A DNA stretch of 33,794 bases. Origin: Planctomycetia bacterium (GTDB lineage Bacteria; Planctomycetota; UBA8108; UBA1146). The stretch lies in contig JAACCY010000011.1 of assembly GCA_009937185.1 (NCBI GenBank), positions 1-33,794 on the forward strand. The letters are read 5' to 3'. A program made the position numbers and the translations under genes. Shown here piece after piece: positions 24,720 to 33,781 of this stretch (position 1 is the first letter of the stretch; every line of letters begins with the position of its first letter). The notes beneath the pieces were generated by a model. That model did no database searches and had not been told where the DNA came from. It was given only the letters and a program-made list of their open reading frames with translations.

Positions 24720-26024
24720 TCATTGAGCGTCAACAAGCATGAAGCGAATCGTGGCCTCTGTCACGGGCTTGCCATCTACGGTAGCACGAACCTGCACCTG
24801 TGCAGAGCGTTCTCGGAGTCTTTTGAGCTCCGCCTCAAGGATCAACTGATCACCGGGAATCACAGTTTTTCGAAACTTAACGTCGTCCATTCCCAGAATA
24901 TAGGCCAATCTCGAAGCATCGGCACTTCCACGCAGGAGTAAGACGCCTGAGAGTTGAGCCAAAGCTTCCAACTGAAGAACTCCCGGCATGACAGGTTGTC
25001 CAGGGAAATGCCCTTGGAAGAACTCTTCATTAAAGGTGACGTTTTTTAAGCCGACAGCACGGACGCCGTCTTCCACTTCAAGAACACGGTCGACGAGAAG
25101 GAAAGGGTATCTGTGAGGAAGAAGTTTGTGGATATCTCGGATTTCCAAACCTCGAGGAGATTTGACGAGGATATCTTCCAATTCCATCGCTCGCACATGA
25201 GCTTCAGCAATCTTGCTCGCGAGTTGTGCGTTGAGTCCATGGCCACTTCGGTGGGCGATGATATGCCCTTGGATGGAGCAACGCAGAACGTAGAGGTCTC
25301 CAAGCAAATCCAAAACTTTATGGCGTGCGGGTTCATCAATGAATCGCCCACCTAAAGCTTCACCGCTGTCAGTCACAATCACGGTATTCTCTTCAGTCGC
25401 TCCCTTACCGAGTCCTTGTGCCTTCAATTCTTTGACCTCACGCTCTAGCACGAAAGTGCGAGCGGGAGCGATCTCTTTGGCGTAAAGTTCTTCGGTTATT
25501 TTAAAATCGACAGTTTGGTTAAAGCCTGGATCTCCCGGATATTGAAGTGTGTAAGTCACTCTTAGATCATCACCGGGAAGAGCGACCACACTGGCCATGT
25601 CATCTTCGGCACTCACCGCATTAGCGATCGCGAGAGACCTACCTCGTGACCCTTGCTTTTCAATACCCGTCTCGCCGATAGCCTCTAGGAATTGAAGAGA
25701 ACTGCCGTCAAGTCCAGGTACTTCAGGGCCATCAATTTCGATGATCCCATTTTCAATACCCAGTACATGAAGTACCGAAAGGAGATGTTCACATGTATGA
25801 ACCTCTATGTCGCCGATGCCGAAACTGGTCCTGCGAGGATGACGACGCAGGGTCTCCAGAGTCAGTGGTATACGTGCCTCTGGGCCAATATCAGTCCGCA
25901 CAAAATGGATACCGGAATCCGGCTCGCCGGGCAGCAAGCGCAACTTTGTCTCGACCCCGGAATGAAGCCCAGGCCCGGTGAAAACAGTTTCGTTTCGGAT
26001 CGTTTGTTGTGACAAAGTGGGCAA
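24720..26024 (-). CDS. lpxC-fabZ: Bifunctional LpxC deacetylase / FabZ dehydratase
   Basis: The 434-residue fusion has LpxC at about 1-285 and FabZ at about 292-434. LpxC's zinc ligands are all visible: His80 (H-T-C-E-H), His235 and Asp239 (R-H-K-V-L-D-L-L-G-D), with the general acid His262 (H-R-S-G-H-G). FabZ's catalytic His304 (L-L-P-H-R-Y-P-F) and Glu353 (M-P-G-V-L-Q-L-E-A) are intact. It commits UDP-acyl-GlcN to lipid A and also dehydrates 3-hydroxyacyl-ACP, the shared precursor. The start at TTG 26024 has AGG five bases upstream; TTG 26015 is an alternative. The frame is the same as skp, separated by TAGTAG. Confidence 0.94.
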   Translation of the reverse strand: MPTLSQQTIRNETVFTGPGLHSGVETKLRLLPGEPDSGIHFVRTDIGPEARIPLTLETLRRHPRRTSFGIGDIEVHTCEHLLSVLHVLGIENGIIEIDGPEVPGLDGSSLQFLEAIGETGIEKQGSRGRSLAIANAVSAEDDMASVVALPGDDLRVTYTLQYPGDPGFNQTVDFKITEELYAKEIAPARTFVLEREVKELKAQGLGKGATEENTVIVTDSGEALGGRFIDEPARHKVLDLLGDLYVLRCSIQGHIIAHRSGHGLNAQLASKIAEAHVRAMELEDILVKSPRGLEIRDIHKLLPHRYPFLLVDRVLEVEDGVRAVGLKNVTFNEEFFQGHFPGQPVMPGVLQLEALAQLSGVLLLRGSADASRLAYILGMDDVKFRKTVIPGDQLILEAELKRLRERSAQVQVRATVDGKPVTEATIRFMLVDAQ

Positions 26025-31389: not shown

Positions 31390-32334
31390 TCAGAGGCTAT
31401 TACGGCCTATCGAAGCAGATTTATGTATCTGTCGAATGGCATTGCCGAACGCCGCAGCGCACGACAGAACAGATACCCTATCACTGGAAATCTTTCCGTC
31501 CACCGGAATGGTGTCGACGAAAGCAAACTCCTGAGCGGGAGAGGCCAAAAGCCTCTCAACTGCAGGACCACATAAAACGGGGTGCGTACAGGCCAATATC
31601 ACCGATTTGGCACCCTTATCGAGAACCAGACGAGCAGCAGCAGTAATTGAGCCCCCCGTCGCGATCACATCATCTGCCAAAATAGCGTTCATTCCGGCCA
31701 CGTCGCCGATAATGAAACCTATCTCGGTCTTTTCGCCACTGACACGCCTTTTGTCGACAGTCGCCAGTCGAGCTCCTAAGCCGCGGCTATAGGCTCTTGC
31801 CATTTTAATGGCACCTACGTCTGGACTGACCACGACGAGATCTTCAAATTCCTTTTTACGGAAGTGATCCACAATCACCGAACCGGCGTAGACGTGATCC
31901 ACGGGAATATCGAAAAACCCCTGAATCTGTTCGCAGTGTAGATCCATTGTCACAACACGGTCAGCTCCAGCAGCGACAATCAAGTTGGCAACCATTTTGG
32001 CGGTGATGGGAACTCGTGCACCTTGTTCACGTCGGTCTTGACGCGCATATCCAAAGTAGGGAATCACTGCGGTGATTCGAGCGGCAGACGATCTCTTCAC
32101 GCAATCGATCATCACCGGGAGTTCCATGAGGTTTTCGTTTACGGGAGGACACGTGGATTGGACGATGAAGACATCCTTGCCTCGTACGTCTTCCCCTAAC
32201 GAAACGGAAATTTCGCCATCAGGGAAACGAGTGACTTCAGCTCTTCCCGGCTCTAGACCCAAGTCGCTGCATATATCAGCGGCTAATGTGTGATTCGAGT
32301 TACCGTTGAGTACTACCATCGTGTCGGAAAGCAT
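31390..32334 (-). CDS. prs: Ribose-phosphate pyrophosphokinase
   Basis: The 314-residue product makes PRPP from ribose 5-phosphate and ATP. It has F-P-D-G-E-I near residue 40, the R-Q-D-R-R-E flexible-loop segment near 100, the metal-binding D-L-H-C-E-Q-I-Q-G-F-F near 130, and the PRPP loop D-D-V-I-A-T-G-G-S near 217. The ATG at 32334 overlaps the stop of the GlmU acetyltransferase half (TGATG). Confidence 0.97.
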   Translation of the reverse strand: MLSDTMVVLNGNSNHTLAADICSDLGLEPGRAEVTRFPDGEISVSLGEDVRGKDVFIVQSTCPPVNENLMELPVMIDCVKRSSAARITAVIPYFGYARQDRREQGARVPITAKMVANLIVAAGADRVVTMDLHCEQIQGFFDIPVDHVYAGSVIVDHFRKKEFEDLVVVSPDVGAIKMARAYSRGLGARLATVDKRRVSGEKTEIGFIIGDVAGMNAILADDVIATGGSITAAARLVLDKGAKSVILACTHPVLCGPAVERLLASPAQEFAFVDTIPVDGKISSDRVSVLSCAAAFGNAIRQIHKSASIGRNSL

Positions 32335-32885
32335 CAGGAACCTTTCTCGTCGTCACCATCCTCAGATTTACTCTGAGGTTTTTTCACCATATTTTTAGCA
32401 GGAACACCAATAACAGTAGTTCCATCCTCGATCACTTTGCCCGGAGGAACCACAGCCCCCGCTCCTATCGTTGCGTTCTTTCCTACATGACCCGGAGCCA
32501 CAATGACAGAACCGCTGCCGACAAAAGCACCTTCTTTTATGAGAGTGTGATGCTTTTTCTTTCCATCGTAATTCGCAACAACAGCACCCGCACCAATATT
32601 GGCATTCTCTTCGATCGTTGCATCACCGAGATACGCCAAATGCTTCGCTTTGGCACCGTCTTTAATTTGACTTCGATTGACCTCTACAAAGTCACCGATC
32701 ACGACACCGTTTCCTAGAATGGATCCGGATCTGATATGAGCGAAAGGTCCCACTTCACAATCAGTACCAATCTCGACCCCACGCCGGATTACGGTTTGAG
32801 GTTGAATCAGAGTATCCTGACCTATGGAGACGTCCATTTCTATCCAAGTGGTCAAAGGATCTACAATCGTGACTCCACGACTCAT
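32334..32885 (-). CDS. glmU: GlmU acetyltransferase half (left-handed beta-helix), separated from the uridylyltransferase half
   Basis: The 183-residue ORF is the glucosamine-1-phosphate N-acetyltransferase domain of GlmU, which makes GlcNAc-1-P. Key residues of the E. coli active site are present: His82 and Tyr85 (K-H-L-A-Y-L-G-D-A), Asn105-Tyr106 and the following Lys (A-N-Y-D-G-K-K-K). It starts at G-V-T-I-V-D-P, where the beta-helix begins in bifunctional GlmU, but about 30 residues (one or two coils) are missing before V-G-P-F-A-H-I-R. The ATG has no good Shine-Dalgarno, and the frame is the same as the upstream half, with two TAG codons between. It could be made by reinitiation or readthrough. 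A monofunctional acetyltransferase is the simplest reading. Confidence 0.88.
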
Positions 32886-32936
32886 GTGATCACGTTGTAT
32901 TCTCTGCTGAATCTACCTAGAAGCCTGAGCCAATTG

Positions 32937-33671
32937 CTAGCGGTCGTTCACCTGGGCGAATTCCTTGTCCACACAGCAATCATGAGTACCTACGCCAAGA
33001 TCACGTTCCTTGAGAACCTCTACCAAACGAGTGAGGTAAGCCTCTTTATCGGGATCTCCTGAAGACAAATCCTCTTCGACGAGAAAGCGCAGAGCCGGGA
33101 GAGTTTTCCTGTGATCCAATGCGTAAATCCCCAGATTGACCTCATGGATTTCTTCGTCATCGAGAGCACGCTCTTTTTGTTCGACGATGCCGTTAAATGC
33201 ACCCTCTGAGCCCACCTCTGAGCCACGGACAATTCTTCCCATTCCAAAGGGGTCATTCAGGATCGAAGTCGCCACCGTGAACGTGTGATCAGAATTATTA
33301 TGCGAAGAGACGATGCCTTGAAGAAGTTCCACGTCGAGATCAGGCAGATCACCATTCACGATCATCACGGTGTCGAAACGCGGAGGACTTTGATCCAAAG
33401 CTTCAAGAACGGCATGCCCTGTTCCCCGAGGTGGATCCTGAAGTGCGAGACGAATATCAGAACCGTCGAGATGAGCACGAATAGAATCGGCGCCGTGGCC
33501 CACAACGACAGTGATGTCGGAAGCCCCAGCAAGTCGCACCTGTCGAATCACATGATCCAGCATCGGTAGCCCGAGTAGAGGATGAAGAACTTTGGGGAGT
33601 GAGGATCGCATTCGGGTCCCTCGACCTGCTGCGAGGATAACAGCGGAAAACTGGTCCATGTCCGGATCCAT
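32937..33671 (-). CDS. glmU: GlmU uridylyltransferase half (N-terminal nucleotidyltransferase domain)
   Basis: The 244-residue ORF is the complete N-acetylglucosamine-1-phosphate uridylyltransferase domain, which joins GlcNAc-1-P to UTP to give UDP-GlcNAc. The nucleotide loop L-A-A-G-R-G-T-R-M with Lys27 (L-P-K-V-L) opens the protein. Q-D-P-P-R-G-T-G-H-A, N-G-D-L-P-D, G-R-I-V-R, V-E-Q-K and E-V-N-L-G-I-Y follow in order. It ends at V-N-D-R then TAG, exactly at the start of the linker helix that leads to the acetyltransferase domain in normal GlmU. ATG 33659 is an alternative start. It lies 35 bp after tRNA-Gln. Confidence 0.9.
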   Translation of the reverse strand: MDPDMDQFSAVILAAGRGTRMRSSLPKVLHPLLGLPMLDHVIRQVRLAGASDITVVVGHGADSIRAHLDGSDIRLALQDPPRGTGHAVLEALDQSPPRFDTVMIVNGDLPDLDVELLQGIVSSHNNSDHTFTVATSILNDPFGMGRIVRGSEVGSEGAFNGIVEQKERALDDEEIHEVNLGIYALDHRKTLPALRFLVEEDLSSGDPDKEAYLTRLVEVLKERDLGVGTHDCCVDKEFAQVNDR

Positions 33672-33706: not shown

Positions 33707-33781
33707 TGGCTACCCGGCGAGGACTCGAACCTCGAATGACTGGACCAAAACCAGTTGTGTTGCCAATTACACCACCGGGTA
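33707..33781 (-). tRNA. tRNA-Gln (anticodon TTG)
   Basis: Acceptor TACCCGG pairs with CCGGGTA (the weak U1-A72 pair is typical of bacterial tRNA-Gln), the discriminator is G and CCA is encoded. The anticodon loop is TTTTGGT with anticodon TTG, and the T arm contains GGTTCGAGT. Confidence 0.95.

Follow-up and report, generated by a model that had tools for sequence, protein, structure and literature searches.

The closest described counterparts of the locus analysed here are the bifunctional GlmU proteins (TIGR01173), in which a uridyltransferase and an acetyltransferase domain share one unbroken frame. In the sister genome and the other congeners of the bacterium under study, this frame comprises about 455 codons and lies in the same place as here, beside prs. 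A second point of reference is provided by supE strains of E. coli, whose tRNA-Gln with the anticodon CUA suppresses amber codons, so that essential genes could carry TAG in place of a Gln codon. The window, by which we mean the whole stretch of 33,794 nucleotides that was analysed, is a contig of a draft genome (G000; 2.77 Mb in 254 contigs, 87% complete). Here, unlike in bifunctional GlmU, two TAG codons in the linker break the frame as given. The locus comprises the following features, listed in the order in which they are read on the minus strand.

33707..33781, minus strand: tRNA-Gln(UUG), just upstream of glmU, identical in the sister genome
32937..33671, minus strand: 5' ORF with the GlmU uridyltransferase (pyrophosphorylase) domain, 244 amino acids, ending in VNDR and a stop; match to the GlmU models
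32937..32939, minus strand: first in-frame TAG of glmU; CAG (Gln) in the sister genome
32886..32936, minus strand: inter-domain linker codons past the first TAG, compared with the sister
32913..32915, minus strand: second in-frame TAG of glmU; CAG (Gln) in the sister genome
32883..32885, minus strand: ATG, would-be start of the second ORF, with no clear Shine-Dalgarno sequence
32334..32885, minus strand: 3' ORF with the GlmU left-handed beta-helix acetyltransferase domain, 183 amino acids; match to the GlmU models
31390..32334, minus strand: prs (ribose-phosphate diphosphokinase), next downstream of glmU, intact

As a preliminary description of this DNA had reported, glmU, a cell-wall gene that is essential, is split in its linker by two in-frame TAGs on the minus strand (33671-32334). 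The second of these had been placed at 32899-32901, which is wrong; it lies at 32915-32913. On the minus strand the linker reads GTG AAC GAC CGC TAG CAA TTG GCT CAG GCT TCT AGG TAG and continues after the second TAG with ATT CAG CAG AGA ATA CAA CGT GAT CAC ATG AGT. Seven codons (QLAQASR) separate the two stops and nine (IQQRIQRDH) follow before the ATG at 32885, which is 27 nt from the second TAG and 51 nt from the first. The linker can indeed be aligned with other GlmU proteins without indels, and the two ORFs correspond to neighbouring parts of the same GlmU models (TIGR01173). No convincing Shine-Dalgarno sequence is present in the 20 bases 5' of the second ORF (AGAGAATACAACGTGATCAC), in agreement with the earlier assessment. 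The stop of the 3' ORF overlaps the prs start, and the tRNA-Gln(UUG) upstream of glmU is the sole tRNA-Gln found in the assembly.

The uridyltransferase domain of the 5' ORF carries the LAAGxGTRM..PKVLH, GTGHA and VNDR motifs, and the C-terminal left-handed beta-helix acetyltransferase domain is present in the 3' ORF. The claim that both halves keep their active-site motifs is only partly correct, owing to the Asn in FVEVNRS (the 3' ORF), which stands at the position of Lys351 of E. coli GlmU. This Asn and a beta-helix shorter than that of E. coli GlmU (window 32723-32640, minus strand) are common to all congeners. Because the whole genus has it, the Asn is not a sign of decay.

The closest relative, the Planctomycetota MAG G005 (JADHSM010000007.1), shares 94% DNA identity with G000 across the whole window. 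Its glmU is a single open frame, 455 codons long, in which CAG stands in the place of each TAG, and the gene is likewise unbroken in the other five congeners, where Arg occupies the first position and Met or Leu the second. Aligning glmU from close relatives, as had been proposed, thus gave sense codons at both positions in the sister and all five congeners; the frame was hence broken recently, and in G000 alone. By the sequences compared, the glmU TAGs are unique to this genome within the genus. A search for a second intact glmU, which the preliminary description had named as a possible refutation if the present copy were decaying, found none in the 87% complete assembly.

Between G000 and G005, dN/dS is 0.07 for the N-terminal and 0.14 for the C-terminal half of glmU, compared with 0.01–0.10 for other genes of the window. 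Across the 16 linker codons from the first TAG to the ATG, leaving out the second TAG, there are four synonymous differences and no missense difference from G005. Moreover, the amino-acid changes in GlmU that are derived in G000 are not more numerous than those derived in G005. Judged from these comparisons, both halves are still under purifying selection and glmU is not decaying; the stops, if real, are young. Together with the intact relatives and the lack of a second glmU in the assembly, the selection on both halves and the missense-free linker indicate TAGs that are either young or not real. The surroundings of the TAGs differ from G005 at 6 of 47 bases, which is not unusual for this pair of genomes. 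A burst of C>T damage at the TAGs was considered, since five of the six changes are coding-strand C>T, and was rejected because similar clusters occur elsewhere in the window. The lowest dN/dS among the window genes tested (0.01) belongs to an LpxC fused to a FabZ-like domain, which is followed by lpxA (24720-26024, minus strand; names given by reading the translations).

The two glmU stops have company in the same assembly. In a 322 kb alignment of G000 and G005, we searched for in-frame stops of one genome inside coding-like ORFs of the other, a comparison that covered 213 genes and 87,810 codons. Mid-gene stops of G000 facing sense codons in G005 were found in glmU (two CAG>TAG), atpD, a ribF-like gene (TCG>TAG) and an SPFH-like gene (GAA>TAA at 0.88 of the gene length). 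The reverse scan, for G005 stops in G000 ORFs, gave none away from gene ends. In atpD, CAG has become TAG at about position 11155 of L131 (G000:C76, minus strand), replacing a Gln that is known as invariant; no further difference from the sister lies within 90 bases on either side, and G000 has one full-scoring atpD copy with this one TAG. A CAG>TAG change in a NUDIX-like gene of uncertain start, ahead of the recognisable domain, was treated as doubtful and serves as the sixth stop wherever six are counted; a further CAG>TAG, upstream of an rpsF-like start, was also treated as doubtful. Five of the six aligned mid-gene stops, the NUDIX-like one included, are TAG, where 35% would be expected at random (P ~0.02), and three or more of them arose by CAG>TAG. 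This TAG excess is a weak hint.

A domain search across six congeners revealed one more TAG of G000 alone, in valS. It was placed by a reordered-segment query and a pattern search at G000:C52:6084-6107 (CD*DRQRF; TGC GAT TAG GAC CGC CAA CGT TTT), where it replaces the TGG of a conserved Trp. Domain searches for aminotransferases, ABC ATPases and GTPases gave no further stops. Thus, G000 alone shows isolated nonsense codons in three other indispensable single-copy genes, namely atpD, valS and the ribF-like gene. An implausible-looking change also affects a tRNA-Ser (L194, G000:C32, 562-651), whose anticodon differs by one base, GGA in G005 and GGG in G000, so that ARAGORN names the G000 gene as tRNA-Pro. 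A tRNA-Ser with this anticodon would put Ser at Pro codons. It accounts for one of three differences in the 1,817 tRNA bases compared between the two genomes.

We propose, with a probability of roughly 0.6, that the two glmU TAGs are base-level errors of the draft assembly and that the living organism has one full-length bifunctional GlmU. The TAGs would stem from an incorrect consensus or from aberrant reads that contributed the bases, and the same source of error would yield the atpD and valS stops and the tRNA-Ser change; we infer one shared technical cause for all of them. The glmU stops are most likely faulty base calls and not a new split, because the same assembly has equally lethal-looking stops in indispensable genes that are intact in all close relatives. 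From the number of nonsense codons, the error rate would be about 5e-4 per base, of the same order as in the tRNA comparison. That all linker differences besides the TAGs are synonymous is expected under base error, since the linker would in reality still be translated. Several observations speak against it. Two stops within 9 codons of a conserved gene exceed chance expectation (P ~0.003 for two within 8 codons if six stops fall at random among 87,810 codons), and independent errors would seldom fall in the inter-domain linker, the sole place that tolerates a stop. A correlated local error must therefore be assumed. The bias of the stops towards TAG, with its repeated CAG>TAG changes, also sits poorly with base error, as does the fact that domain scores of G000 and G005, compared by eye, are about equal; a general load of missense errors in G000 is not evident from them. 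On balance, an assembly error, which the preliminary description had itself named as a route to refutation, is the better reading. What could be tested in that description was borne out, with a recent interruption that is here confined to G000, whereas neither of the two causes it had offered, fission or TAG readthrough, is supported as the likeliest in view of the atpD, valS, ribF-like and SPFH-like stops and the tRNA-Ser anticodon.

The main rival is a real and recent fission of glmU, which we regard as unlikely but deserving of serious attention. The first TAG would end the uridyltransferase after VNDR and translation would restart at the ATG at 32885, giving two one-domain enzymes; the second TAG would have arisen later, in the then-dead linker. 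Such a dead linker accounts for two stops so close together, a pairing that is improbable for independent events, and the frame is interrupted precisely where one GlmU domain gives way to the other, both of which retain a low dN/dS. Moreover, stand-alone GlmU uridyltransferase frames of 254–292 codons occur in five other Planctomycetota genomes (G030, G037, G042, G051 and G052), and two such genes were read in their loci (L026 and L033). One-domain GlmU in other Planctomycetota makes a split biologically possible, with a precedent in the phylum. However, fission leaves the atpD and valS stops of the same assembly unexplained, and these cannot be fissions themselves because they lie mid-domain, inside the catalytic cores of the ATP synthase beta subunit and valyl-tRNA synthetase; a single cause for all the stops is the simpler account. 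It also fits poorly with a linker free of missense changes, as the second TAG would have needed time to arise, with the lack of a clear Shine-Dalgarno sequence before the second ORF, and with the absence of the split from every relative in the genus or family. A literature search found no published glmU fission. More doubtful still is the idea that the contig bears a dead glmU, be it a pseudogene or an uncommon variant, non-viable or cross-fed, that entered the assembly, with the functional copy elsewhere. A second copy could be missing from an assembly of this completeness, yet none is present in it, and the purifying selection on both halves and the lack of a surplus of G000-derived amino-acid changes argue against a dead gene. 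We rank this explanation as the least probable of all.

Amber suppression, whether by a suppressor tRNA or by leaky termination at UAG, would let an amino acid, mostly Gln, be inserted at this codon and thereby make TAG tolerable in essential genes. Most of the aligned mid-gene stops and the valS stop are TAG, the CAG>TAG changes include two in glmU and one at the atpD Gln, and if TAG meant Gln none of the six changes in the linker region would alter the protein. Against this, RF1 (prfA) is intact, no CUA anticodon occurs among the 35 tRNAs found in the 87% complete assembly, and rpsB, rplI, dnaB and lpxA (dnaB and lpxA so named by reading their translations) end in TAG. In aligned genes, TAG terminators of the sister are also TAG in G000 in 34 of 38 cases, and no clear shift from TAG to other stops is seen. 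CAG>TAG changes number 5 in 1,485, at most 4 of them inside genes, whereas about 46 would be expected on the G000 branch if TAG and CAG were freely interchangeable, as calculated from the synonymous rate. In addition, Gln-specific readthrough misfits the valS site, which is Trp>TAG, and the ribF-like site, which is Ser. We therefore hold amber suppression to be improbable, and give slightly less credence again to its fullest form, a free-living planctomycete with natural amber suppression that would read UAG in glmU (twice), atpD and valS while RF1 and UAG terminators persist. A global TAG=Gln code was rejected on the grounds of the intact RF1, the conserved TAG terminators and the rarity of CAG>TAG; a published screen of over 250,000 genomes states that all bacterial reassignments then known concerned UGA (PMC8629427). 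An apparent TGA inside prfA proved to be the natural stop of that gene. Adjacent same-frame ORFs, counted by stop type, gave no clear TAG excess, and scanning codon usage for readthrough stops lacked the sensitivity to be of use.

If the stops are base errors, as we consider more likely, the locus is a caution against claims of fission or recoding drawn from draft genomes, which call for a prior look at whether genes of the atpD and valS type carry stops in the same assembly. If they are real, either a two-domain enzyme of the cell envelope has been caught shortly after it split, or amber suppression occurs naturally in this bacterium. Known systems offer a counterpart for each of these outcomes. 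The stand-alone GlmU uridyltransferases of Planctomycetota in L026 and L033 have the N-terminal domain only and end at or after the linker helix, and the L033 gene adjoins prs and a bL25-like gene. Unlike at the present locus, no beta-helix ORF adjoins them within the short loci examined, and they are an established state in distant families, whereas here a bifunctional gene would be freshly broken. The supE strains of E. coli differ from G000 in that no suppressor tRNA was found in the latter, a Trp codon is also affected, and RF1 and the TAG terminators are normal.
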